This document shows, piece after piece, positions 961-51,203 of a DNA stretch of 64,000 bases (position 1 is the stretch's first letter; each line of letters starts with the position of its first letter). The position numbers and the translations under genes are program-made. The DNA lies in contig NZ_CP114291.2 in the NCBI RefSeq assembly GCF_027111355.2, positions 558,001-622,000 of the forward strand, read 5' to 3'. Source of the DNA: Flavobacterium eburneipallidum (GTDB lineage: Bacteria > Bacteroidota > Bacteroidia > Flavobacteriales > Flavobacteriaceae). The notes under the pieces were generated by a model. It worked only from the letters and a program-made list of their open reading frames with translations, had not been told where the DNA came from and made no database searches.

Positions 961-968
961 TATATTTG
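961..968 (+). promoter_or_regulatory. Candidate -7 box of the HNH-LeoBC-LeoA operon
   Basis: TATATTTG matches TAnnTTTG exactly and lies 24 bp before the ATG at 993. It overlaps an in-frame TTG at 966, so that TTG cannot be the translation start if this promoter is used. A -33 TTG is not evident. Confidence 0.5.
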
Positions 969-992
969 AAAACCCAATATGAATGTTCCAAC

Positions 993-1427
993 ATGATTGA
1001 CCCAAATCGTCCGTATAGCAGACTAGCTATTGATAAAATTTTCACCAAAACCAAAGCTACAATGCAACAAGCCGCACTTATTCGTGGCGGAGATGGATTA
1101 GCACTTTACACAGATGTTTACACAGGCAAAATTTTGCGTGGCGGCGATCTTTACGACTACGAACACTTGCGTTCCTCCGAAGCAGTTCACACCCAATTCA
1201 AATTTCACTTAACTGATGACCAAATAGCTTTAGTAGTTAATTGTCCCGAAAATGTGGGCGTTACTTTAAGAAGCATCAATCAATCCAAAGGAAAACGAAA
1301 AATGGAAGATTGGTTGAGTAATCCTGCTAATATAACTATTTATGGAATTGATTTGAAATTGACTTTAGCGAATTTGAAAAAAGCAGATGAGGGGATTGAG
1401 AGAATGGTTAGGAGTTTTAGAAAATAA
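993..1427 (+). CDS. Small HNH (His-Me finger) nuclease-like protein upstream of dynamin-like genes
   Basis: A 144-residue protein I cannot place in a named family. It shows a recognisable HNH layout: YTDVYTGKIL at residues 39-48 resembles the first HNH strand, D55-Y-E57-H58 gives the D-x-[DE]-H catalytic position, N87 lies in NCPENVGV, and N96 in INQSKGK resembles the final N/H helix of GmrSD-type and other HNH enzymes. The zinc-binding cysteines are absent. No signal peptide or membrane segment is present. The stop codon is only 5 bp before the LeoBC-like start, so the genes are probably co-transcribed. Base composition is nearer to the host than that of the two following genes. Nuclease function is inferred from motifs only; it could be an unrelated conserved protein. 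Confidence 0.6.
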   Translation: MIDPNRPYSRLAIDKIFTKTKATMQQAALIRGGDGLALYTDVYTGKILRGGDLYDYEHLRSSEAVHTQFKFHLTDDQIALVVNCPENVGVTLRSINQSKGKRKMEDWLSNPANITIYGIDLKLTLANLKKADEGIERMVRSFRK

Positions 1428-1432
1428 GTAAA

Positions 1433-3859
1433 ATGAAAAAAGAAAAAGATCATAAATCTATAATTACATTAATAGCTGTTTATATAATTACTGCTGATAA
1501 GCAAATAGATAATAAGGAACTTGATACTATTTACGCATATAATAAAAATTGTATTGATATTGAAAACGAAATAAATAATATTTTTTCTGATGATGATAAT
1601 AAAATTCTTTTGAGTGATTTGGTAAAAGAATTATCTTTTTTTCCTGACACTATAATTTATGAGGCTTATAATTTGTTCCTAGATATTATATATTCTGATG
1701 GATTTTGTCATATAAAAGAGCAAGAAAAATTAAACGAGATAAAAAAAATACTACCTTTTAATGATTCAAGTTTAGCTATTTTAGAATTATCTTTTCTTGA
1801 AAAATCAAAAAAGTCTCTTTACAAAGAAGAAAAAAAGAAAGACGATAAGTTTTATAAAAAGGCAATTAACAATTCTGATCAATCAGATAAAAAAGAGAAA
1901 GAAATTTTATTGAATGGTCCTCAATTTGTGCAAAAAATAAAGCAAATTTCAAAGACAGCAAAGTTTGATTTAAAATTTGTTGAAGAGGTAATTTCCGAAT
2001 CTTCTAATCGCATTGTCAAATTAATAAATAGTTTAGAAAATAATAAACTTAAAAATCATAATAGGAAAGATGAAGAGTTTGATGGATTTGTTAGTCAACT
2101 CCAAAGAACTATAAAAGAAATGTCTACGAACCATTTGCAGGAGAATATTCAAGTCCTGAATAAAAAGAAACGTTCGGTAGATTATTTTACAATTTCGTTT
2201 TTGGGGAGGACTAAAGCAGGTAAAAGTACTTTGCATTCTATAATTACAAAAGATGGAGACGACGCTATTGGCGTTGGAAAAGTCAGAACTACTAGATATA
2301 ATAGAGTATATAATTGGGAAAATTTAAGAATTGTAGATACTCCAGGAATTGGTGCTCCTGGAGGAATGTCTGATGTTGAAATTGCTGAAAGTATAGTTGA
2401 TGAGTCTGATTTAATTTGTTATTTAGTCACTGATGATGCTATTCAAGAAACAGAATTTCAATTTCTTTCTGAAATTAAAAAGAAAAACAAGCCTGTAGTA
2501 ATTCTTCTAAATGTGAAAGAAAATCTTGAAATCGAAAGTCGAAAGAATTTGTTTTTAAAAAATCCTAATAAATGGAGGGAACGAAGAGATAATAAAAGCA
2601 TTCAAGGGCATATAGACAGGATTAATGACTATATGATTAAATATTATAATAGCAATCATTATAGAGTAATTCCTGTTATGCTGTTAGCGTCAAAATTATC
2701 TGAAATAGAAACAGATACTTCGGTAAAAAAGATATTGTATGATGGTTCAAATGTTGAAGAATTCTTGATTAGTTTAAAAAGTACTGTATTTGAAAATGGA
2801 CATTTACGAAAATCTCAAAATATAATTGACGGTACTAATTTTAGATTGAATGCTTTTCATTCGGATATCAATTATCAGTATTTAGCATTGTCTGATATAA
2901 TTTCACGATTAAAAAAAGAAAAGATTTCTTTTAGTGATTTCTTAAAAAAAAATAAAGGCGGATATGAACAAAATTTAAAGGATGAAGTTGAAACCTATGT
3001 TTCAAAAATTAGAAAATTTGCTAGAGATTTTGCAATAAATAATTGTGAATTAAGCGAAAGTAAATTGACTAAACTTTGGGAGAAAGAATTATTAAGTAGG
3101 GGCTATAAACAACAATTAGAAAAGAGAATAAGTGAAGAATTTGATATTATTCAAACAGAAATACGGTCAAGGTTAAATGAGTTTTTGGAAAGTTTTCAAT
3201 TGTTTTTTAACAATTTAAGTTTTAACATAAAAAAAGATTCTACTTTTAATACAAGGAGTTTCTTAAAAATTGGTGGGAGTTTAATTGGAGTTGTGGGAGC
3301 AGTTGTTGGTTTTTGTGGTTTGGTGTCTAATCCTATTGGGTGGGTAATTGCAATAGGAGGTATTTTGGTTGGATTGTCTAATCTTTTATTTAAATCTAAA
3401 GCCAATAAAATTAAAGAAGCTCAAGAGAAGATAGAGAAGAGTTTGATAAAAGGAATTAATGATTTTGAAATACATTTGAAAAAAGAAATTTCTAAAAGTC
3501 TCGATAAGATGTTGTTTGATTATGATAAATCAGTCAATGATAATATGGGTAAATTGATTATTGAAGCTGAAGCATTTCAAAAATTATTAAAAACAGAATT
3601 AGATTTTAGTAATAGCAAAGTAGATATACTAAATAAAGCTATGATGATAAGAGTTTTGCAGCATACGAAACATCTCGATTTAGATTTTGATGTAAATAAA
3701 TTTGTTTCTGAAGACAAAACCATAATTGACATTCAAAGAGATTTTAAGAAAAATCAAATTGAATTAAAAACTAGTCATCAGCTAGAAAGTAAAGACGTAA
3801 TAAAAATATCTGAATTGCTTCAGTGCGATTTTAAAGTATATGGAACTAAAATTAAATAA
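1433..3859 (+). CDS. Dynamin-like GTPase with N-terminal TerB-like domain (LeoBC-like, Eleos system)
   Basis: An 808-residue protein. Residues 1 to about 110 form a helical TerB-like region (IITADKQIDNKELD, LDIIYSDGFCHIKEQE). After a lysine-rich linker comes a dynamin-type G domain: P-loop GRTKAGKST at 258-266, switch II DTPG at 302-305, and a non-canonical G4 around LLNVKE. A long coiled-coil stalk follows, then a glycine-rich hydrophobic hairpin at about 610-655 (GGSLIGVVGAVVGFCGLVS), the expected membrane paddle, and a helical tail. Size, domain order and position just ahead of a LeoA-like gene match LeoBC of Eleos (formerly 'Dynamins'), an anti-phage system thought to act at membranes. 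The gene is strongly AT-rich, which suggests acquisition. The GTPase call is secure; the Eleos assignment is by architecture. Confidence 0.8.
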   Translation: MKKEKDHKSIITLIAVYIITADKQIDNKELDTIYAYNKNCIDIENEINNIFSDDDNKILLSDLVKELSFFPDTIIYEAYNLFLDIIYSDGFCHIKEQEKLNEIKKILPFNDSSLAILELSFLEKSKKSLYKEEKKKDDKFYKKAINNSDQSDKKEKEILLNGPQFVQKIKQISKTAKFDLKFVEEVISESSNRIVKLINSLENNKLKNHNRKDEEFDGFVSQLQRTIKEMSTNHLQENIQVLNKKKRSVDYFTISFLGRTKAGKSTLHSIITKDGDDAIGVGKVRTTRYNRVYNWENLRIVDTPGIGAPGGMSDVEIAESIVDESDLICYLVTDDAIQETEFQFLSEIKKKNKPVVILLNVKENLEIESRKNLFLKNPNKWRERRDNKSIQGHIDRINDYMIKYYNSNHYRVIPVMLLASKLSEIETDTSVKKILYDGSNVEEFLISLKSTVFENGHLRKSQNIIDGTNFRLNAFHSDINYQYLALSDIISRLKKEKISFSDFLKKNKGGYEQNLKDEVETYVSKIRKFARDFAINNCELSESKLTKLWEKELLSRGYKQQLEKRISEEFDIIQTEIRSRLNEFLESFQLFFNNLSFNIKKDSTFNTRSFLKIGGSLIGVVGAVVGFCGLVSNPIGWVIAIGGILVGLSNLLFKSKANKIKEAQEKIEKSLIKGINDFEIHLKKEISKSLDKMLFDYDKSVNDNMGKLIIEAEAFQKLLKTELDFSNSKVDILNKAMMIRVLQHTKHLDLDFDVNKFVSEDKTIIDIQRDFKKNQIELKTSHQLESKDVIKISELLQCDFKVYGTKIK

Positions 3860-3865
3860 ATTAAA

Positions 3866-5569
3866 ATGGAGAATAGTGCAGACTTAAAATTTAATAATTT
3901 ATCATTAAAACTCAATGGGATTATTCAAAAAACATTTTTATTGTTGAATGAATTTGAAAAGATTGATGCTCTAGAATTGTTAACATCTAAATTAAACACA
4001 AGTAAAGAAAGTTCAGAGTTAAAAGTTGCATTTGTCGGACAGTATAATGCTGGAAAATCCACGATAATATCTGCATTAACTGGGAGGCGAGATATTAAAA
4101 TAGATTCAAATGTAGCAACAGATGTTAGCTGTGATTATAAATGGAACGATATTAAATTCACTGATACTCCAGGTATTTTAGCTGGAAAAGTTGAAAAACA
4201 CGATGAGGTTACCAAAGAAGCTCTTAGTCAGACAGATTTGATTGTTTATGTACTAACAAGTCAATTATTTGACGATGTTATTTTTGAAAACTTTATCGAT
4301 TTGGCATATAATCAAAAGTTAAAAGATAAAATGCTTATTGCTATCAATAAGATGTCAAAGGAAAAAGGAGATTTTGATATACTTAAAAAAAATTATCAAG
4401 AATCGGTACTTACCGTTTTTAAAGAACGTGGATATGATTTTGACTTTGAAATAGTGTTTATTGATGCCGCTGATTATATGGAAGGAATCGATGAAAATGA
4501 GGAAGAACTTATACAATTGAGTAATTTTTCTAATTTTATTGAAACCCTAAATTCATTTATTGAGGATAACGGAATAGTTCAAAAGGCATTCGATACACCA
4601 ATCCGCATAATTAGGGAAGAGTTGAGTCAAGTTGCTTTCGACGAAGTAGATCCAAATTTTAATCTGGTATTGAATAAATATCAAAATAGGCTTTTGAAAC
4701 ATAAATCGGAAATTGTTAGGAAGTCAGAATATTTACTTGAAAATTTGAAAACTAAAATTATCGAACAGGGTTATTTGGTGTCCTCTTCAATTGATCAAAT
4801 AACCCAAGAAGATTTTGATGTGAAGCAAAATAAGTTTAATCTATTATTGGAAACCGAATCTACGGCAACAATGAGTCAAATTGAAAATTTGATCAAAGAA
4901 AAAACTAAAGTGTTGCGTGAAGAATTTGAAGAGATAAATCTAGACGATGATGTTTCTTTTTACATAGATAATCTTAAAAAAGATTCTGAACGTAAAAAGA
5001 TAAATCCAGTTTTTAATAGTTCTTCTTTAGAAAGTAAAATACGACTCTTAAATACTTTAAAACAGAATTCTGATAAACTAACTAGTTTTTCAGGTGCTAA
5101 TAAAGCTGCTGGTGTTTTTGCGAAATCGGGCGAAATTAGTGGGTCTGCGGGTCATACATTAGTCAAAAATATCGGCTCTACAATTGGATTTAAATTCAAA
5201 CCTTGGCAGGCTGTTAAAATAACTAAAAATATTGGAAACGTAGCTAAATTTGCAGGCCCCGCAATAGCAGTTATTTCTACTGGTGTTGAGATATATGGAG
5301 CTATAAAAGAAGAAAAAGAACTTAAGGAGATAGCAGTTTCTAAAAGCCAAATGAATGAAAGTTTTTATGAAATTGCTAAAGAAGTAGTTTTACAGATAAA
5401 AGAAAAGTTCAATGAATATGTTAAAGAAAACATAGATAATAAGATAAATGAATTCCAGGAAAAGAAATTAGAGATTGTAAGAACTAATGAAACTAATTCA
5501 AAATTCCAAGAAGCTATAAGTAAATTAGATAGTGAATTGATAAATTTTATTGAACTGATAAATAATTAA
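3866..5569 (+). CDS. Dynamin-like GTPase, LeoA-like (Eleos system)
   Basis: A 567-residue dynamin-family GTPase, close to the length of LeoA from enterotoxigenic E. coli. The G domain starts early: P-loop GQYNAGKST at 58-66, DTPG at 100-103, and G4 as INKMSKE near residue 160. The middle is helical and charged. A glycine/alanine-rich amphipathic stretch near residues 430-475 (FAGPAIAVISTGVEIYGAI) is a possible membrane-binding tip, followed by a coiled-coil end. It starts 6 bp after the LeoBC-like stop, so the two are translationally close and probably form a hetero-complex. It shares the AT-rich composition of its partner. A hairpin at 5581-5608 closes the operon. Anti-phage function is inferred from family and pairing. 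Confidence 0.8.
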   Translation: MENSADLKFNNLSLKLNGIIQKTFLLLNEFEKIDALELLTSKLNTSKESSELKVAFVGQYNAGKSTIISALTGRRDIKIDSNVATDVSCDYKWNDIKFTDTPGILAGKVEKHDEVTKEALSQTDLIVYVLTSQLFDDVIFENFIDLAYNQKLKDKMLIAINKMSKEKGDFDILKKNYQESVLTVFKERGYDFDFEIVFIDAADYMEGIDENEEELIQLSNFSNFIETLNSFIEDNGIVQKAFDTPIRIIREELSQVAFDEVDPNFNLVLNKYQNRLLKHKSEIVRKSEYLLENLKTKIIEQGYLVSSSIDQITQEDFDVKQNKFNLLLETESTATMSQIENLIKEKTKVLREEFEEINLDDDVSFYIDNLKKDSERKKINPVFNSSSLESKIRLLNTLKQNSDKLTSFSGANKAAGVFAKSGEISGSAGHTLVKNIGSTIGFKFKPWQAVKITKNIGNVAKFAGPAIAVISTGVEIYGAIKEEKELKEIAVSKSQMNESFYEIAKEVVLQIKEKFNEYVKENIDNKINEFQEKKLEIVRTNETNSKFQEAISKLDSELINFIELINN

Positions 5570-5580
5570 AGTACTAATTA

Positions 5581-5608
5581 GGCTTCAACTTAAAAGTAAG
5601 TTGAAGCC
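5581..5608. terminator. Hairpin between convergent leoA-like and WYL genes
   Basis: A perfect 12-bp inverted repeat, GGCTTCAACTTA with TAAGTTGAAGCC, and a 4-base loop. It sits in the short gap between convergent stop codons and could terminate both transcripts. Confidence 0.75.
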
Positions 5609-5614
5609 TTGACT

Positions 5615-6526
5615 TTATAAATACCCCTCAAACCCCTTCCACAATTCCTCCTTAATCTCCTTCGCCAGCCATTTCGGCTCTACAACCTTAACTAAACTCC
5701 CATATTTCAAAACCTGTTGTGTGAACTCAAAATTAGGATGAATGCGTAGTTCAATAGCAAAAGCGTTTTCGTTATCGGCATTGATTTCCTTTTGAGAATG
5801 ATGTAAAGGAAGTGAGACAATATATGGTTTTTGCGAAATGTGAAAGGACAATTCTATCTTCTCTAATTTATGATCCACATAATTCAAACCAATAACCTGG
5901 CTGAATTTGTCTTTGGCTTCCTCGGTTTTGGCTTTGAACTTTTTAGTACCTATAGTACTATTTTCTATTCGGTCAATTCCAAAAGTGCGATAGCCTTTTT
6001 CAGTTTCGCCAATAACATACCAACGGTTTTGGTATTGCTTCAGGAAATAAGGTTTTAGTGTGTATTCTTCCTGTTTCAAATGATAAAAACTATTGTGCTT
6101 GAATGTTACAGGCAATTGTTGTTGTATGGCATCCAAAACAATTTTGAAATTTGGGATGTGTTCTATTGCCGCTTTATTCTCGAATTCTACAAAGGATAGG
6201 GCATTATTTTTCTCTTTGAAATTGGCAGAGAAAAGTTCGGCAGTAGTCAGAATTTCTAACAAACTCAAGAATGATTCGGGGTTACTACTGTTTTCTTGGT
6301 CAAAGAAATAACCACCATTGTTATAGTCAAATACAATTTCAATTCCAAAATCTCGGGCTAATGTTTCTTTAAGTCTGTAAAAAGTACGATCAATGAAACC
6401 TTTGTCATTGTCTTCAAAATAAGCTAAAATTTCTTGCTTGGTTTTGTATGGATTTCGTTTTAGATAAGCCAACAATAAACTTATTCTTCTTAATTGGGTC
6501 AGGTTCAAACTCTGATTTTTTTTCAT
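5615..6526 (-). CDS. WYL-domain transcriptional regulator (YafY-type)
   Basis: A 303-residue regulator from the ATG at 6524-6526; an upstream in-frame TTG at 6547 lies inside a -7 box and is unlikely. Residues 1-75 form a winged helix (SLLLAYLKRNPYKTKQEI, DRTFYRLKETL). The WYL domain follows, with LKPYFLKQYQNRWYVIGE then RTFGIDRIEN, and a C-terminal extension domain ends near KEELWKGFEGYL. WYL proteins bind DNA and often sense nucleotide-like ligands; several control defence or DNA-damage genes. It is convergent with the Leo-like operon and divergent from two small membrane-protein genes. The divergent region holds TGACA repeats that could be its operator. Which neighbour it controls is not shown by sequence. 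Confidence 0.85.
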   Translation of the reverse strand: MKKNQSLNLTQLRRISLLLAYLKRNPYKTKQEILAYFEDNDKGFIDRTFYRLKETLARDFGIEIVFDYNNGGYFFDQENSSNPESFLSLLEILTTAELFSANFKEKNNALSFVEFENKAAIEHIPNFKIVLDAIQQQLPVTFKHNSFYHLKQEEYTLKPYFLKQYQNRWYVIGETEKGYRTFGIDRIENSTIGTKKFKAKTEEAKDKFSQVIGLNYVDHKLEKIELSFHISQKPYIVSLPLHHSQKEINADNENAFAIELRIHPNFEFTQQVLKYGSLVKVVEPKWLAKEIKEELWKGFEGYL

Positions 6527-6544
6527 ACTGTTTGTTTTATAGTA

Positions 6545-6563: not shown

Positions 6564-6635
6564 TGACAAAAGATGTCAGTCGTTTTATTTTAAAAAAACA
6601 ATTTATCGCTGACATAATTTGACAGTCCGCTGACC
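6564..6635. promoter_or_regulatory. Phased TGACA repeat array, candidate WYL operator
   Basis: TGACA at 6564-6568 and TGTCA at 6574-6578 form a perfect inverted repeat with a 5-bp spacer. TGACA recurs at 6610-6614 and 6620-6624, and TGACC lies at 6631-6635. Centre spacings of 10, 10 and 11 bp put the sites on one helical face. The array sits between the divergent WYL gene and the 6670 gene. The operator role is inferred. Confidence 0.55.
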
Positions 6636-6669: not shown

Positions 6670-6885
6670 ATGAAAAATCTTTTCAAGAAACAAAACACAG
6701 AAATGGACTTTAGTAGTTTAAGCACCATTTTGACTTCAGGAGCTGCCGCAGGAATGGTAATTGCAAATCATTTGGGCAAAAACCCACAAACAGGAGGCAT
6801 TATTGGTGTTGGTCTGTCATTATTAGTAACAGGTTTAATGACCGCTTTAGAAGATGAAACTACCTCCTCAAATTCTAAAAGCTAA
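6670..6885 (+). CDS. Small hypothetical membrane-associated protein
   Basis: 71 residues, not assigned to a known family. A charged start (MKNLFKKQNTEMDF) is followed by glycine/alanine-rich hydrophobic stretches (ILTSGAAAGMVIANHLG and GGIIGVGLSLLVTGLMTAL) and an acidic, serine-rich tail. It probably holds one or two short membrane helices. It is transcribed divergently from the WYL regulator behind the TGACA array and is likely co-transcribed with the next small membrane gene, 47 bp downstream. Co-regulation by the WYL protein is the simplest reading. Confidence 0.6.
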   Translation: MKNLFKKQNTEMDFSSLSTILTSGAAAGMVIANHLGKNPQTGGIIGVGLSLLVTGLMTALEDETTSSNSKS

Positions 6886-6932: not shown

Positions 6933-7187
6933 ATGTTATTTCAATTATTGTTAAATATTATTGTGTTTTTTATAAAATGCCTAGTCTGGTTTGTATTCGT
7001 ATTAGCGGCAATTCCTTATGGAATTTATATGTTGTTAAATGATTGGTTTCCCATTTTTACTCATGATGGAGGTTTTTGGTTTTGGTCTGTTTTGTCCGCA
7101 CTCTCCATAATAGGTTTTGTAGTGTTCTGGAAACCCATTATGTGGATTGTTGGTATCTTACAAGTATTAGGCGCAGGTGCTCAATAA
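6933..7187 (+). CDS. Small hypothetical membrane protein (about three helices)
   Basis: 84 residues, nearly all hydrophobic: MLFQLLLNIIVFFIKCLVW and FVFVLAAIPYGIYMLL, a short polar loop NDWFPIFTHDGG, then FWFWSVLSALSIIGFVVFW and a last hydrophobic segment. No family recognised. It follows the 71-residue membrane gene on the same strand and precedes a hairpin terminator at 7251-7285, so the two genes probably form one transcript divergent from the WYL regulator. A small pore-forming or envelope-stress role is possible but not shown. Confidence 0.6.
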   Translation: MLFQLLLNIIVFFIKCLVWFVFVLAAIPYGIYMLLNDWFPIFTHDGGFWFWSVLSALSIIGFVVFWKPIMWIVGILQVLGAGAQ

Positions 7188-7320: not shown

Positions 7321-9939
7321 TTAACTATTCTCCTCCATTTCCAAGATTAAATTGGCAATAAGTGCCGTCCATCCAGTTTGGTGTGATGCGCCAAGACCTT
7401 TGCCATTGTCACCATCAAAAAATTCATAGAAGAAGTGTTCGTTTCTAAAGTTTTCTTCTTTGGAGAAAACATTATTTTCATCATCGGCATGGTATTGAAA
7501 TTTGCCTTCTTCGTTTCTTTCAAAAAGTCGGATTAATCGTTTTGTGAGTTCGTTAGCAATTTCTTTTAAGTTCAGTTTATTTCCTGAACCCGTTGGGAAT
7601 TCATATACATAAGTTGGCCCATAAAAAGTATAATATTTGCGCAAGGATTGAATAATCATATAATTTAATGGCATCCAAATTGGGCCACGCCAGTTCGAAT
7701 TTCCGCCAAACATAGCGGAACGGCTTTCGCCAGGTTCATACTGAATTTGGTGTGAATTATTAAATACAAAAGGATGGTCTTTGTGAAACTTGGAAAGCGA
7801 ACGAATTCCATAATCAGAAAGAAACTCGTTTTCGTCTAACAAGCGTTTCAAAAGATGTTCTAATCTAAAACCCCGCATAATCGAGAATAGAAAATTTCCA
7901 TCTTTGTTAGCTTCTTCTAAATTAGAAATTAAGGACGCTAAATCTGGACGCGTTCTTATGATTTCGTTGGCTCTTTTTCTAAAATCTTTTAATTCTTCGA
8001 ATAAATCTTTGTGCATAATTTCGACGGCAAACATTGGAATGACACCAACCAAAGAGCGTACTCTCAAGCGTTCTGTTTTTCCGTTAGACATTTCAACAAC
8101 GTCATAATAGAAATTGTCTTCGTCGTCCCAAAGGGAAATATCTTTTTTTCCAATATGGTGCATTGCCCAAGCAATGTTTAAAAAGTGACGAAAAAATTTA
8201 GCCGATACTTCTTCGTAAATGGGGTTGGTTTTTGCCAATTCGAGTGACATTCGCAACATATTCAAAGAGAACATTGCCATCCAGCTTGTGGCGTCGGCTT
8301 GTTGCATTTTTTTGATTCCTTCGGGCATGTGATTGCGATCAAAAACCCCAATGTTATCCAAACCTAAAAAACCGCCTTCGAATAAATCGGTGCCGCTGGT
8401 ATCTTTTTGATTAACCCACCAAGTGAAATTGATAAGCAATTTTTGGAATGTTTTTTCAAGGAATGCTGTGTCAGGTTTGCCAGTGCGCTGTTTGTCTTTT
8501 TCATAAACCGTCCAAACTGCCCAAGAATGAACAGGAGGATTCACATCGCTAAAATTCCATTCGTAAGCAGGAATTTGACCATTAGGGTGCATATAGCTTT
8601 CTTGCAAAACAATAAGCAATTGCTGTTTTGCAAAACCAGGATCGATTTCTACAAAAGAAGCCATGTGGAAGGCTAAATCCCAAGCGGCATACCAAGGATA
8701 TTCCCATTTGTCGGGCATAGAAATTACGTGGCGATTGGTAAGGTGTTGCCATGAAAAATTTCTCATATTGGCACGATTGGGTTTGTCTTCTCCGGGACCA
8801 CCAAAAAGCCATTTGAAAACATCGTTGTAGTAAAATTGCTTTGTCCATAACAAGCCTGAAAAGGCAGCTTTTGCAATAGCGCGATGTGCTTCGGGGATTT
8901 TTTCGGTTATGGTTTTGTTGTAAAAGTCTTCACATTCTTTTTTTCTTTGCTCGAAAATAGTGTCAAAATCTTCCCAAGGATTTTCAAGTTGAACATTACT
9001 CAACCGTAGATTAATGCTTTTCTCTTCGCCAGCTTTTAAATCTAATAAATAGCAAATAGCAGCTTTGGTCCCTGTTTTTTCTGGGTTTACAGTTGCTTTT
9101 CCGTTTACAATGTATTCATTGATGCCATCTTTGACATATTTATGTTCGTTACTATAATTATAGATTCGTTGGTTATTGGTTTCGTTTTCACAAAATAGTT
9201 GTTCGCCATTTTCGTGATAAAAATAATAATCGCTAATTCTAGAACTTTGGGTAAGTATGGTATTGTTGGAAATAGATTTCATATTGGGTCGAGGATGTCT
9301 GGCATTGTGTTTCCAGAAATTTCGAAACCAAATATGAGGCAAAACATGAATACTGGCAGCGTTTTTCCCTCGATTGACTACCGTAATTTTTATCAAAACA
9401 TCATCAATATCGGCTTTTGCATATTCGACGTAGCAATCAAAATAAGCATTGTCCTTGAAAATACCAGAATCTAATAACTCAAACTCCATTTCCTCTCGAC
9501 TTCTCCTATTATTGTTGACTAAATCGCTGTAAGGAAATTCATTTTGTGGATATTTATAAAGGTATTTGTTATACGTATGTGTAGGAGTAGAAAGCTGATG
9601 AAAGTAAAGTTCTTTCACATCTTCGCCATGATTTCCCTGATTATTGGTCAAGCCAAATAGGCGTTCTTTGATGATAGGATCTTTGCCATTCCAAAAAGCG
9701 GGAGCGAGACATATTATTTCGCGAGAGTCACAAAAACCAGCGATTCCTTCTTCGCCCCAACGATAGGCATTACTACGGGCTTTGTCATGGTCAATGAATT
9801 CCCAAGCTTCTCCGTGTTGACTATAATCTTCACGAACGGTTCCCCATTGCCTTTCGGCTAAATAAGGTCCCCATTTTTTCCAATTTCGGTAGTTGTCAGC
9901 TACGGCTAATCTCTCTGTTTCTGAATTTGTGCGAGCCAT
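7321..9939 (-). CDS. MGH1/GH63-family glycoside hydrolase
   Basis: An 872-residue protein of the GH63-like (alpha/alpha)6-barrel group. The N-terminal third is a beta-rich domain ending near VLPHIWFRNFWKHNARHP. The C-terminal part is the toroid, with WEYPWYAAWDLAFHMASF, PAYEWNFSDVNPPVHSWAV, GGNSNWRGPIWMPLNYMI and a final QTGWTALIANLILEM. The aspartate in AWDLAFH and the acidic residues around AYEW are the expected active-site positions of this clan. There is no signal peptide, so it is cytoplasmic. Relatives hydrolyse alpha-linked glucose or glucosylglycerate-type compounds; the substrate here is unknown. It is a stand-alone gene, 438 bp downstream (on the minus strand) of the RND exporter gene. 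Confidence 0.85.
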   Translation of the reverse strand: MARTNSETERLAVADNYRNWKKWGPYLAERQWGTVREDYSQHGEAWEFIDHDKARSNAYRWGEEGIAGFCDSREIICLAPAFWNGKDPIIKERLFGLTNNQGNHGEDVKELYFHQLSTPTHTYNKYLYKYPQNEFPYSDLVNNNRRSREEMEFELLDSGIFKDNAYFDCYVEYAKADIDDVLIKITVVNRGKNAASIHVLPHIWFRNFWKHNARHPRPNMKSISNNTILTQSSRISDYYFYHENGEQLFCENETNNQRIYNYSNEHKYVKDGINEYIVNGKATVNPEKTGTKAAICYLLDLKAGEEKSINLRLSNVQLENPWEDFDTIFEQRKKECEDFYNKTITEKIPEAHRAIAKAAFSGLLWTKQFYYNDVFKWLFGGPGEDKPNRANMRNFSWQHLTNRHVISMPDKWEYPWYAAWDLAFHMASFVEIDPGFAKQQLLIVLQESYMHPNGQIPAYEWNFSDVNPPVHSWAVWTVYEKDKQRTGKPDTAFLEKTFQKLLINFTWWVNQKDTSGTDLFEGGFLGLDNIGVFDRNHMPEGIKKMQQADATSWMAMFSLNMLRMSLELAKTNPIYEEVSAKFFRHFLNIAWAMHHIGKKDISLWDDEDNFYYDVVEMSNGKTERLRVRSLVGVIPMFAVEIMHKDLFEELKDFRKRANEIIRTRPDLASLISNLEEANKDGNFLFSIMRGFRLEHLLKRLLDENEFLSDYGIRSLSKFHKDHPFVFNNSHQIQYEPGESRSAMFGGNSNWRGPIWMPLNYMIIQSLRKYYTFYGPTYVYEFPTGSGNKLNLKEIANELTKRLIRLFERNEEGKFQYHADDENNVFSKEENFRNEHFFYEFFDGDNGKGLGASHQTGWTALIANLILEMEENS

Positions 9940-47732: not shown

Positions 47733-48143
47733 TTAGCAATATTCGTTGAAAGCATCTTTTAAGTTCTCAGCGATTAATTCCGCTGGACGACCTTCGATGT
47801 GGTGACGCTCTAACATGTGAACTAATTCTCCGTTTTTGAACAAAGCCATACTTGGCGAAGATGGAGGAAAAGGAAACATTTGTTCTCTTGCCGCATTTAC
47901 CGCATCTTTATCAACTCCTGCAAAAACCGTGATTAAATGATCTGGTTTTTTAGCACCTTCTAAACTCATTGCTGCTCCTGGACGTGCATTTCTTGCAGCA
48001 CAACCACAAACAGAATTTACTACTACGAATGTTGTGCCTTCAGCTTTAATTGCATTAGTAACGTCTTCCGCATTATGTAAATCTTGAAAACCTACAGCTG
48101 TTAATTCTGCCTGCATTGGTTTTACCATTTCTTCTGGATACAT
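47733..48143 (-). CDS. BrxA/BrxB family bacilliredoxin
   Basis: 136 residues, thioredoxin-like fold. The family motif CGC is at 46-48 (VVNSVCGCAARNARPGA), followed by PDHLITVFAGVDKDAVNAAR and FPPSSPSMALFKNGELVHML. Relatives in Bacillus remove bacillithiol from mixed disulphides; in flavobacteria, which often carry the family, the thiol partner depends on the organism. It is a single gene with its own -7 box and terminator. Confidence 0.93.
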   Translation of the reverse strand: MYPEEMVKPMQAELTAVGFQDLHNAEDVTNAIKAEGTTFVVVNSVCGCAARNARPGAAMSLEGAKKPDHLITVFAGVDKDAVNAAREQMFPFPPSSPSMALFKNGELVHMLERHHIEGRPAELIAENLKDAFNEYC

Positions 48144-48189
48144 ATTTTTTTATTTTAAGATTAACGAAATTTATTTTAAAAAATCTTTG

Positions 48190-48197
48190 CAAAGATA
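48190..48197 (-). promoter_or_regulatory. Candidate -7 box for the bacilliredoxin gene
   Basis: Minus-strand TATCTTTG matches TAnnTTTG, about 46 bp before the ATG. Confidence 0.45.
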
Positions 48198-48264
48198 ATG
48201 AGAATTAAAGCTTTATTATAATTTCAAATTGTAAAGTTTTGTTATGTTTACACAATAAAATTAT

Positions 48265-48954
48265 ATGAGTATGGAGTTTGCAAAAAACGAGAAATATATA
48301 AATAAAGTTACCTTAACAAGTTTTGTTTTAATAGGAGTTTCAATTTTTGGATTTGCAATAATTTTTTTTCAACTATTGTATTTAGATAATAAGCCTGAAA
48401 ATTTTGGAGTAGTTGGTGATGCAATTGGAGGAATATTAAATCCTTTGATTGCGATTGCTGCTTCTTTTGTAACCTTTTTAGCATTTTATATTCAAAAACA
48501 AGCTAATGACGAAATAAGACAACAATTTATTGATCAAAGTAATAAAGAGTTTGATGATTTTTTATATAAAAAATATTCTGACAAGATTAATTTGATAAGT
48601 AATGAAATTAATAATTATTTTTTCACTTTTTCAGAATATACAAAACCTAATTCGAAGAGAAATTTTAATGGTATACAAGCAATAATTGAAACATTTAATA
48701 TTTATACAAAAGAAAGCAAAGAAGTTAATTATTCTACTTTAAAAAAGGAGGATATTGATGTTAAAATGCAAGAAATATATTCAATATTTAGTTTTTATTA
48801 TTTGAATTTAGATAAAATAAATAATCTTTGTTTTTCTAAAAGAGAAGGAAAGGATAAGAACGAATATGGAATTAAATTAAGAGAGGATTTAATTGACAAT
48901 ATGTTTTTTATTTATAATGCAAAAATTCAATTTATTAAGCACCTATCCCTTTAA
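48265..48954 (+). pseudogene. Putative AbiC-type abortive-infection protein, 5' part (split by IS)
   Basis: The first 224 codons (to 48937) belong to a membrane protein of the putative phage abortive-infection family. Two N-terminal membrane helices (VLIGVSIFGFAIIFFQLLYL and the segment GGILNPLIAIAASFVTFLAF) are joined by the characteristic FGVVGDAIGGILNP, then a soluble helical domain. From 48938 the frame runs into an insertion sequence and ends after KHLSL, which is IS-encoded. Joining 48937 to 50566 restores a 254-residue frame ending ENHEINFKKLFNDIEVLVDN. The Abi role comes from the family name; members are poorly studied. Confidence 0.75.
48930..48937. repeat. Target-site duplication, left copy
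   Basis: ATTTATTA, identical to 50558-50565, directly outside the left terminal inverted repeat. Eight bp is the usual duplication length for IS1595-family elements. Confidence 0.9.
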
Positions 48955-48999
48955 TGGAAATTAATACCTTGTAAAGTATTATAAATAAAAGCAAAAGTA

Positions 49000-49959
49000 A
49001 TGAATTTAATAGAAGTAAATAAAAATTACAACACACAGGCAAAATGCTTGAAATTACTGGAACAATTGCGTTGGGGTAAGAACGTAAGATGCACTTTTTG
49101 TGACTCAAACAACGTAAAAACGATAAAATCCGAACAGGGGCGGTACTCCTGCAAAAACTGTAACAAGTCATTCTCTGTTATAGTGGGTGCAATATTCGAG
49201 GAAACCCGAATGGAATTACCTAAATGGTTTCAGATTATTACTTTGATGCTTAATGCAAAAAGTAGTATATCGGCAAAGGAAATAGAACGTAATCTTGGAG
49301 TTACTTATAAGACGGCTTATTATGCCTGTATGAGAGTAAGGATAGGAATGTTGATGCCAGAAACAAAGTTGAACGGAATTATAGAAATGGATGAAAGCTA
49401 TTTTGGAGGCAAAGCCCGAAAAAACCATACCATTTCAGACGACAACGTAAGTTTAGCACAAACAACATTAAAAAGAGGACGAGGAACAAATAAAGTTTCG
49501 GTCGTGGGAATGGTTCAGCGACAAGGAAATGTAAAAACAAAGATTATTGAAAAACTAACCAAAAGAAATTTGCTATATATGTTGAAGTCAAACGCCAAAA
49601 GTGATAACTCAATTTTGATGACTGATGGATTCAGGTCTTACAATGAATTATAAACCTACATCGAGAGGCTTGTTGTAATTCACTCAAAACAATATAGCAA
49701 AGGAATAGTGCATATCAACACAATAGAGGGTTTTTGGAGTTATGTTAAAAACGGAATCAAAGGAAGTTTTAAATCTGTTAGCAAAAAGTATCTACCCCTT
49801 TATTTAATTGAGTTTGAATGGAAATTTAACAACCGTAATTTCAAAGGAAACGAGTTGGAGAAGTTTCTAAAAAACGCACTATTTCAAGAAAAAGAATTAG
49901 AACATTGGAAAGCCCAAAGTTCTCAACAAATTAAAAATATAGCGTATGGGAACGAGTAG
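49000..49959 (+). pseudogene. IS1595-family (ISXO2-like) transposase with internal stop
   Basis: A single frame of 319 codons interrupted by TAA at 49651-49653 (codon 218). The N-terminus has a zinc ribbon (CTFCDSNN, CKNCNKSFSV). The catalytic domain has EMDESYFGGKARK, LMTDGF and, after the stop, HINTIEGFWSYVKNGIKGSF with the N and E of the DD-N-E/K centre. The stop lies between the second aspartate and the asparagine, so a terminated product lacks part of the active site. One base change (for example CAA to TAA) explains it. Restart at the GTG at 49708 could only yield an inactive fragment. Confidence 0.88.
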
Positions 49960-50122
49960 TCTATCTGCTTTTATGTTTTCTATTTTGGGCGACACACCTT
50001 GGAACAATGCCCCTGAATGGGCGATTTATATTCTTTTAGGATTGTGTTATTTGGGAATTGTTGTTGGTGTAATAGCATTCTGCATTCAATTGAAGTTTCT
50101 TTGGGATGAATTTTTTCGTTGA
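49946..50122 (+). CDS. 58-residue membrane protein overlapping the transposase end
   Basis: An ATG frame beginning MGTSSLSAFMFSILGDTPWN, then NAPEWAIYILLGLCYLGIV and VGVIAFCIQLKFLWDEFFR. It has one clear membrane helix, a proline/tryptophan-containing N-terminal part and an aromatic, charged tail. It overlaps the last 14 bp of the transposase in another frame and is antisense to the 3' part of the 49980-50489 ORF. The amino-acid pattern looks more protein-like than the antisense reading here. Possibly an IS accessory protein; no family recognised. Confidence 0.5.
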   Translation: MGTSSLSAFMFSILGDTPWNNAPEWAIYILLGLCYLGIVVGVIAFCIQLKFLWDEFFR

Positions 50123-50489
50123 TTTCGAAAACGGCTAATATAAAGGCAGAAACAGTTCCTAAAACTAATAATACATTTTTTGTGTAAAGCCAAAGTTTTA
50201 ATTGAAGTTCTTTATTTTCTTTAGAAATATAACCATCAGAATTTATAAATAAAATGCCTTCAACAGTAATGTAATATCTAAAAATATCTTTATCGATAGT
50301 TTCAAACCGTGAAGCATAACCATCTTTAACTAATTTTTGAATAACAGCAAGTTTATCTCTATTTGATAAATTTATTAAAACTGCATTTCTCGAAAAAAGG
50401 TCATTATATTCAATGTGTGAATCAGAGGTTTGTTTAAGTAAAACAGATAAAGTTAAATTTAATATTTTATTGTAGTTTAATTTTTCCAT
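49980..50489 (-). CDS. 169-residue passenger ORF in the IS (winged-helix-like plus one helix)
   Basis: It starts MEKLNYNKILNLTLSVLLKQ. Residues 1-80 look like a small winged helix (NRDKLAVIQKLVKDGYASRF, FRYYITVEGILFIN). A membrane helix at about 102-117 (NVLLVLGTVSAFILAVFE) is preceded by LKLWLYTK. The last 40 residues (after EINEKIHPK) overlap the 58-residue plus-strand ORF and look random, so the original protein may have ended near residue 125. IS1595 elements often carry passenger genes. No function assigned. Confidence 0.55.
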   Translation of the reverse strand: MEKLNYNKILNLTLSVLLKQTSDSHIEYNDLFSRNAVLINLSNRDKLAVIQKLVKDGYASRFETIDKDIFRYYITVEGILFINSDGYISKENKELQLKLWLYTKNVLLVLGTVSAFILAVFEINEKIHPKETSIECRMLLHQQQFPNNTILKEYKSPIQGHCSKVCRPK

Positions 50490-50557
50490 AAGTAGAAATT
50501 ACGATTAAAACAAACATACAAAATAAAAACGAACTATCCATTAAAGGGATACGTGCC

Positions 50558-50565
50558 ATTTATTA
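50558..50565. repeat. Target-site duplication, right copy
   Basis: ATTTATTA, identical to 48930-48937, directly outside the right terminal inverted repeat. Confidence 0.9.
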
Positions 50566-50657
50566 TTAAAAAATTCAAAGGTTTAGAAAACCATGAAATT
50601 AATTTTAAAAAATTGTTTAACGATATTGAAGTATTAGTTGATAATAAAACTCAATAA
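50566..50657 (+). pseudogene. Putative AbiC-type gene, 3' remainder
   Basis: This is the disconnected tail of the gene starting at 48265. Joined to base 48937 it reads in frame as IKKFKGLENHEINFKKLFND then IEVLVDNKTQ and a TAA at 50655-50657, bringing the protein to 254 residues. On its own it has no start codon or promoter. Confidence 0.8.
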
Positions 50658-50738
50658 TGGTTTCAAATAATTCTTTATTAGTATTCTTAAATTATTTGTA
50701 AATCATTTAAAAACGTTATGTCAATTTGGATAAACCTA

Positions 50739-51203
50739 CTACTTCGTCTTTTCTAGAACAGTTAGTAATTCTTTATCACTTATAAAAGAACCCTTTTGAA
50801 ACACAATTGAATAATCAGATTCTAAAATGGTAACTGTTGGATAAACCACTTGAGAATTAATGGTTGCTAATGCCGTGGCGAGTTCGTGAATTCCTGTGTT
50901 TTGTACATTTGGTTTGAATTGGAACTTATGATTATTGAATTGAATGTCCTCTTTGTTTTCGGCATCCAATGAAATGAAGTAGAAATTATTATTTAAAATG
51001 GCGATTATTTCAGGATTTTTGAAAGTAGAATTTTCCATCATCTTGCAGTAATTGCACCAGGAAGTATGAATAAAAACTACCAATGGTTTTGGATTTTCTT
51101 TGGATAATTTTTCGGCTTCTTCAAAAGTATAGGTTTTCAATTGGGCAAAACCAGAGGGAATTGCCCAAAAGAAAATCAATAGGATATAAAGCCATTTTTT
51201 CAT
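50739..51203 (-). CDS. Exported thioredoxin-family protein
   Basis: 154 residues from the ATG at 51201-51203. The signal peptide MKKWLYILLIFFWAIPSGFA is followed by a thioredoxin fold with HTSWCNYCKMMENSTFKN, CxxC at residues 50-53, and the cis-proline region VVYPTVTILES. It is a periplasmic thiol-disulphide protein of the Thioredoxin_7 kind. On the minus strand it follows the TonB receptor gene after a repeat-containing gap of about 110 bp, so a shared transcript is possible. Confidence 0.85.
   Translation of the reverse strand: MKKWLYILLIFFWAIPSGFAQLKTYTFEEAEKLSKENPKPLVVFIHTSWCNYCKMMENSTFKNPEIIAILNNNFYFISLDAENKEDIQFNNHKFQFKPNVQNTGIHELATALATINSQVVYPTVTILESDYSIVFQKGSFISDKELLTVLEKTK

Follow-up and report, generated by a model that had tools for sequence, protein, structure and literature searches.

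Genes and features of the locus

The stretch of DNA analysed here, called the window in the following, comprises 64,000 nucleotides (positions 558001-622000) of the single-contig genome of Flavobacterium eburneipallidum (3.85 Mb). Near its left end it carries a gene for a protein of 144 amino acids (aa) of the HNH type, followed on the same strand by two genes for dynamin-like GTPases of the Eleos type, LeoBC and LeoA, and on the opposite strand by a gene for a WYL-domain regulator. Comparison with homologous loci (denoted by L and a number) identifies the HNH and WYL genes as the fixed ends of a GTPase-rich cassette-exchange locus. The features are as follows:

961..968, plus strand: TATATTTG box, 24 bp ahead of the HNH start codon
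993..1427, plus strand: HNH (beta-beta-alpha-metal) protein, 144 aa, ATG at 993 to stop at 1427 (predicted model, conserved residues)
1395..1432, plus strand: left recombination boundary, where identity to L029 climbs from about 70% to about 88% within the last tens of HNH bases
1433..3859, plus strand: LeoBC-type dynamin-like GTPase, 808 aa (PADLOC LeoBC, 1.4e-86; model matches)
1433..1813, plus strand: extra N-terminal domain of LeoBC, residues 1-127, probably TerB-like (PF05099, E 0.15; helical in the model)
3866..5569, plus strand: LeoA-type dynamin-like GTPase, 567 aa (PADLOC LeoA, 8.6e-92; PF18709 DLP_helical, 1.6e-8)
5580..5609, no strand: hairpin of 13 bp in the gap where LeoA and WYL converge (folding against shuffles)
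5615..6529, minus strand: WYL-domain regulator, right-hand fixed end (PF13280, 1.6e-11; PF25583, 1.7e-7)
6564..6578, no strand: palindrome TGACA-N5-TGTCA, candidate operator upstream of the WYL gene
6670..6885, plus strand: 71-aa protein
6933..7187, plus strand: 84-aa protein

The 144-residue frame had been proposed as HNH-like from its D-x-E-H...N...N layout, which includes H58; the layout is real, and the HNH fold is supported. Residues Y54, D55, Y56, E57, H58, N87 and N96 are invariant in all 44 aligned sequences, and the AlphaFold model (pLDDT 94.5), upon structural alignment against the families listed by VIA-align, displays the beta-beta-alpha-metal/HNH fold. D55, E57, H58, N87 and N96 would have a metal role, and the protein would be an active metal-dependent nuclease. 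No named HNH family was matched in Pfam or NCBIfam at E values up to 10, an absence that does not exclude the fold, and a sequence search of the PDB with the protein and its profile gave chance-level matches only, such as arginine kinase and aspartic proteinase; the sole PADLOC profile to match was PDC-M40B (2.2e-6, residues 44-139 on positions 121-235 of 547). A chance open frame is ruled out by the 504 homologues found and by purifying selection, with a ratio of nonsynonymous to synonymous substitution rates (dN/dS) of 0.08-0.18 against those relatives for which dS is defined (12 of 14, L029 and L031 being saturated), values which are rough because most dS values exceed 1. The ratio stays low, at 0.07 and 0.16, in two pairs of HNH genes without any cargo beside them (L068, L069, L074), which argues that the protein works without the Leo pair. 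Origin of the gene from a phage or plasmid was likewise rejected, as relatives were absent from IMG/VR in a pattern scan and from phage and plasmid records in tblastn searches. At L072 (match 7998-8426), a 198-aa relative with, by eye, a lipoprotein-type N-terminus adjoins membrane-type genes, and its nuclease fold may lie outside the cytoplasm. At L070 (6251-9711), a row is formed by WYL, a von Willebrand A protein, a fusion of HNH with a membrane-type protein, and a separate HNH copy.

The reading of the two GTPases as LeoBC and LeoA, made originally from order, size and motifs, is confirmed by nearly full-length profile matches (PDLC03841, residues 182-780 on 17-589 of 601, for LeoBC; PDLC03839, residues 30-557 on 32-553 of 559, for LeoA) and by intact P-loops, GRTKAGKS at residue 258 and GQYNAGKS at residue 58, respectively; LeoA scored 83.8 bits with the NCBIfam LeoA/HP0731 model, under its cut-off of 325. 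The tight spacing that had been described was found again, with 5 bp between the HNH stop and LeoBC and 6 bp between LeoBC and LeoA, and the order is identical in L029. The AlphaFold model of LeoBC (pLDDT 79.4; computed with 50 of the 119 further homologues listed, in addition to the query) matches BDLP, IniA, LeoA, the bacterial dynamin pair and mitofusin. About 180 N-terminal residues of LeoBC extend beyond the profile; with PF05099 present as precomputed annotation on many of the 120 listed homologues, this extension is probably a diverged TerB-like domain. By its profiles and motifs, the pair is of the Eleos type, and by analogy it may act on membranes as other Leo/BDLP proteins do.

Ahead of the unit, the predicted TAnnTTTG box is indeed present as TATATTTG, which we take to be a Bacteroidota-type -7 box; it recurs at about the same place in L025 and is absent from the other 13 upstream stretches compared. 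As for the hairpin thought to close the unit, the structure itself is real in folding terms (-18.4 kcal/mol, z -5.4, 0 of 200 shuffles equally stable), but it has no T-run and is missing from the list of the terminator scan.

Exchange of GTPase cassettes between the HNH and WYL genes

Relatives of the HNH gene occur in 17 of 398 genomes of the genus and in 4 of 299 genomes of the family, the own genome being included in both counts and one of the four family genomes (G021, 30% identity) being doubtful. The 35 named homologue loci were gathered by six peptide patterns derived from one query, so that close relatives are favoured among them. Their cargo, i.e. the genes beside HNH, is distributed as follows:

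Arf-like GTPase operon: L024, L025, L037, L038, L041, L050
GTPase pair or single GTPase: L026, L030, L033
Leo pair: L027, L029
dynamin: L040, L054, L057
dynamin and HerA: L032, L042
IIGP: L058
no GTPase seen, contig end: L028, L044, L052
no cargo: L031, L034, L048
other genes: L035, L036, L039, L043, L045-L047, L049, L051, L055, L056

GTPase genes thus belong to the cargo, although not always next door, in 17 of the 35 loci, a tally recounted with phmmer that leaves out L053 with its truncated GTPase relative devoid of a P-loop. The Arf-like calls rest on a Pfam match above the cut-off in L037, on matches below it in L024 and L050, and on similarity to these in L025, L038 and L041; L032 and L042 match Dynamin_N without the canonical P-loop string. 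For comparison, a random place in the own genome would lie within 8 kb of a GTPase gene with an expectation of about 7%, given that 16 MMR_HSR1 matches remain of 18 once the two Leo genes are set aside. A same-strand gene ends at most 100 bp before HNH in 21 of the 35 loci, and one starts at most 100 bp after it in 12. The Arf-like operon is found with HNH first (L024, L025, L050) and with HNH last (L037, L038, L041 and, by gene sizes, L071, named by these and a P-loop, with a Dynamin_N match of 0.0081 that is weak); likewise, the GTPase pair has HNH first in L026, and beside an HNH remnant in L077, where it was named by P-loops and gene sizes, and HNH last in L033.

At the other end, a relative of the WYL gene is present in 22 of the 35 loci, with 62-87% identity in L024, L025, L029, L030, L050, L073, L077 and L078; in all of these except L025, relatives of the 71-aa and 84-aa proteins, for which Pfam holds no family, stand beside it. 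Many marine Flavobacteriaceae loci are ordered WYL, 69-aa gene, cargo, HNH.

Replacement of the middle part can be followed in several pairs of loci, which together form an experiment set up by nature: frames can be almost identical yet differ in their cassette, one cassette can recur in unlike frames, and one site is empty. The close Flavobacterium loci L030 and L073 share 8.5 kb at 90.1% identity up to 43 bp past the HNH stop and again 6.3 kb at 93.0% from the WYL end onward; between these flanks, the cargo of L030 is a 355-aa GTPase, and that of L073 consists of an EcsC protein and a small gene that seems to be frame-shifted. The window and L025 (F. frigoris; contig stops just past WYL) agree in HNH and WYL, with Leo genes as cargo in the former and the Arf-like operon in the latter. 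The converse is seen for the window and L029, whose Leo genes are about 88% identical in DNA, inside frames with identities of about 70% (HNH) and 45-79% (WYL); dS amounts to 0.53 and 0.50 for the Leo genes and is undefined (saturated) for HNH. In L024 and L050, bins of 150 bp give 93-100% for the Arf-like operon against 58-87% for HNH and WYL, with one bin at 18% where an insert begins in L050. In L050, a 132-aa gene, a relative of the broken gene of L073, precedes a duplicate of the HNH 3' end (118 columns, 74.6%), after which comes the Arf-like operon. L034 is an empty site, and in L036 and L035 no more than about 10 bp separate the cargo from the start codon of HNH.

The HNH gene and its cargo differ in their histories. 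A tree built from 45 HNH proteins, without the three remnants L075-L077, the longer L078 and the second row of the own genome, clusters the sequences largely by host (Cyclobacteriaceae, marine Flavobacteriaceae, Flavobacterium); of its 42 inner branches 22 are open, and the branches of L072 and L043 are long. The window forms a pair with L025 (96/79), and L029 a group with L028 and L031 (99/95); a constraint that unites the two Leo rows carries a cost of 19.1 log units (p-AU 0.037). The frame genes of the window are nearer to L025 than to L029, both for HNH (83-84% vs 73-74%) and for WYL (87% vs 62%). The GC content is in line with this split: the deviating composition of the HNH gene, pointed out early on, was found again (37.7%), and it goes with that of WYL (34.4%) and of the gene stretch 1-756 (38.8%), as opposed to 26.4% for LeoBC and 29.1% for LeoA.

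The palindrome TGACA-N5-TGTCA ahead of the WYL gene is the single match in the window, with 0.04 expected, and the same shape precedes WYL in L050. A related lead is the 14-base element YGACANNAATTGWC, with 10 matches in 774,731 bases (window plus 47 loci) vs 0.85 in 20 shuffles, a count that is descriptive because the motif was picked after most loci had been inspected, only the L027 match lying outside the inspected stretches. Five matches directly follow the HNH stop (in L050, that of the HNH remnant), and five lie ahead of a WYL gene (L029, L030 twice, L050, L073). A TAnnTTTG box is placed 12 bp past the element in L024, L025, L030 and L050, and the identity of L030 and L073 stops on the final base of this box, which suggests that the frame of the locus brings its own, putatively WYL-controlled promoter for the cargo. 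The element is not present behind HNH in the window, so the Leo genes there probably depend on the promoter ahead of HNH.

Several cargo operons and neighbours deserve mention in their own right. The operon of L037 (6128-7991) consists of the Arf-like GTPase and two small proteins without Pfam family; related operons adjoin HNH in L024, L025, L038, L041, L050 and probably L071, making it a candidate defence operon. In L032 (1716-7979), a dynamin-like protein, a 142-aa protein, a HerA ATPase and a 174-aa protein form one row ending in HNH. A histidine kinase of about 993 aa and a 249-aa response regulator lie upstream of several HNH copies (11 loci) and were not taken as part of the unit. Far from the locus, GC falls to 23% at 48-49 kb of the window (48001-51000), adjoining an IS1595-type transposase frame (49000-49653) that covers part of the domain only.

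The role of the HNH gene

The original prediction saw in the HNH protein a possible third member of Eleos. The same 5-bp spacing in the window and in L029, where the whole trio recurs (73% identity for HNH, 85% for LeoBC, 88.5% for LeoA), would fit such a dedicated component, as would the different LeoBC-LeoA pair behind HNH in L027. These are, however, the only 2 of 35 loci with HNH directly 5' of LeoBC, and the histories differ; on these two grounds the HNH protein was rejected as an Eleos subunit, and the idea, being largely refuted, is now very improbable. Searches from the LeoBC side agree. A LeoBC like that of the window was found in 1 of 398 genus genomes, namely its own, and PADLOC LeoBC in 5 of 395 phylum genomes, own included, in searches that scored two or three candidates per genome and may undercount. 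No HNH match lies near LeoBC in the 4 other Bacteroidota genomes, one of which has less than 0.5 kb visible upstream; two plasmid LeoBC-like genes are followed by a second GTPase gene, with neither an HNH gene nor any other same-strand gene listed just before them in an incomplete gene table; a pattern scan of IMG/VR gave no LeoBC relatives. The reservation that HNH might be only a neighbour came close, but it is a special neighbour, the fixed end of a cassette-exchange locus.

We consider it probable that HNH is a resident gene at one end of the locus, beside which GTPase operons are swapped by recombination, the Eleos-type pair being the present cassette; the 2/35 linkage, the separate histories, the swapped cargo and the selection without cargo all argue for a resident, independently useful HNH. 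A resident chromosomal HNH gene would mark one end and, in many loci, the WYL regulator the other; operons mostly of dynamin-, IRG-, Arf- or AIG1-like GTPases would be replaced through recombination, its break points located at the margin of the HNH gene and where the WYL gene ends. HNH would cut invading or, when triggered, own DNA alone, HNH and the Leo pair of the window may both be transcribed from the promoter ahead of HNH, and WYL may control the locus via TGACA/TGTCA-type operators. Most likely, HNH is a small protein that cuts DNA and serves defence by itself, sharing its locus with exchangeable modules.

A bolder view, to which we give a distinctly smaller though appreciable chance, regards HNH as the common killing arm of whatever cassette is present, set free when the GTPases, HerA, EcsC and others sense infection, with WYL in control. 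The occurrence of the same cargo types in both gene orders, the tight spacing on either side, the GTPase share well over the 7% expectation and the operator-like element just after HNH and ahead of WYL are all consistent with it. On the other hand, HNH remains under purifying selection without cargo and is present in the cargo-free sites, 17 of 35 loci show no GTPase and L053 only its truncated relative, and HNH does not cluster by cargo. Equally tentative is the wider notion of a plug-in immune chassis, in which HNH would be the common effector and WYL the common regulator behind GTPase sensor cassettes that can be exchanged (dynamin pairs, IRG-like, Arf-like, AIG1-like); if true, Flavobacteriaceae would swap the sensor and keep the killing arm, the reverse of systems with a fixed sensor and varied effectors. 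Alternatively, HNH might act as a homing-like or landing-pad nuclease, its cuts in the locus driving the exchange itself; break points fall at the 3' end of HNH in window/L029 and L030/L073 and at its start codon in L034/L036, and L050 has a second HNH 3' end, as if cassettes had been stacked. Yet cargo moved without HNH in both comparisons concerned (window/L029, L024/L050), unlike the co-conversion of homing nucleases, and flanking homology by itself would suffice; this option appears unlikely. The locus offers a direct test of whether a single downstream nuclease serves bacterial dynamin, IRG-like and Arf-like GTPases. By their position, GTPase operons not yet characterised, namely the Arf-like operon, the GTPase pair and dynamin-HerA, stand out as candidates for defence modules.

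Comparison with known systems

The dynamin-like proteins LeoABC are described in PMC4159319. The window resembles Eleos/LeoABC in its two adjoining dynamin-like GTPases, in LeoBC-LeoA order with full-length profile matches, and in a predicted LeoBC fold akin to LeoA, BDLP and the bacterial dynamin pair; it differs in the N-terminal TerB-like extension of LeoBC and in the HNH gene in front, which neither plasmid pair examined has. With HNH nucleases such as Gme HNH, the Cas9 HNH domain, Cap5 HNH and endonuclease I, the protein has in common the predicted fold and the conserved H and D/N, but it is a stand-alone protein of 144 aa without a named-family profile match. Integron-like or defence-hotspot cassette exchange features fixed ends and an exchangeable middle. 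The present locus follows this scheme, down to the shared part of L030 and L073 ending on a promoter-like box, except that its ends are formed by a gene for a nuclease and one for a WYL regulator.

PDC-M40B is related in that its profile sees the window HNH; its model has 547 positions, however, and the window protein corresponds to the nuclease part alone. A true relative of 549 aa is encoded at L078 (6993-8642, minus strand; PADLOC 1.3e-18 over 127-502), with an HNH stretch, hydrophobic helices and a 274-aa partner gene, adjoining relatives of the WYL, 71-aa and 84-aa genes of the window; it is probably a PDC-M40 system at the same hotspot. Titles and abstract starts of the open-licence literature yielded nothing that combines HNH with Leo genes or deals with a cassette locus of HNH and WYL, and no paper with the word PDC-M40. 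In the DO-GTPase/GAP1 conflict systems outlined by Kaur et al. 2020 (PMC7159879), the invariable part consists of the GTPase and GAP1, accompanied by modules that change; both share a GTPase switch with changing partners, but here it is HNH, often with WYL, that stays constant, and the GTPase that varies.
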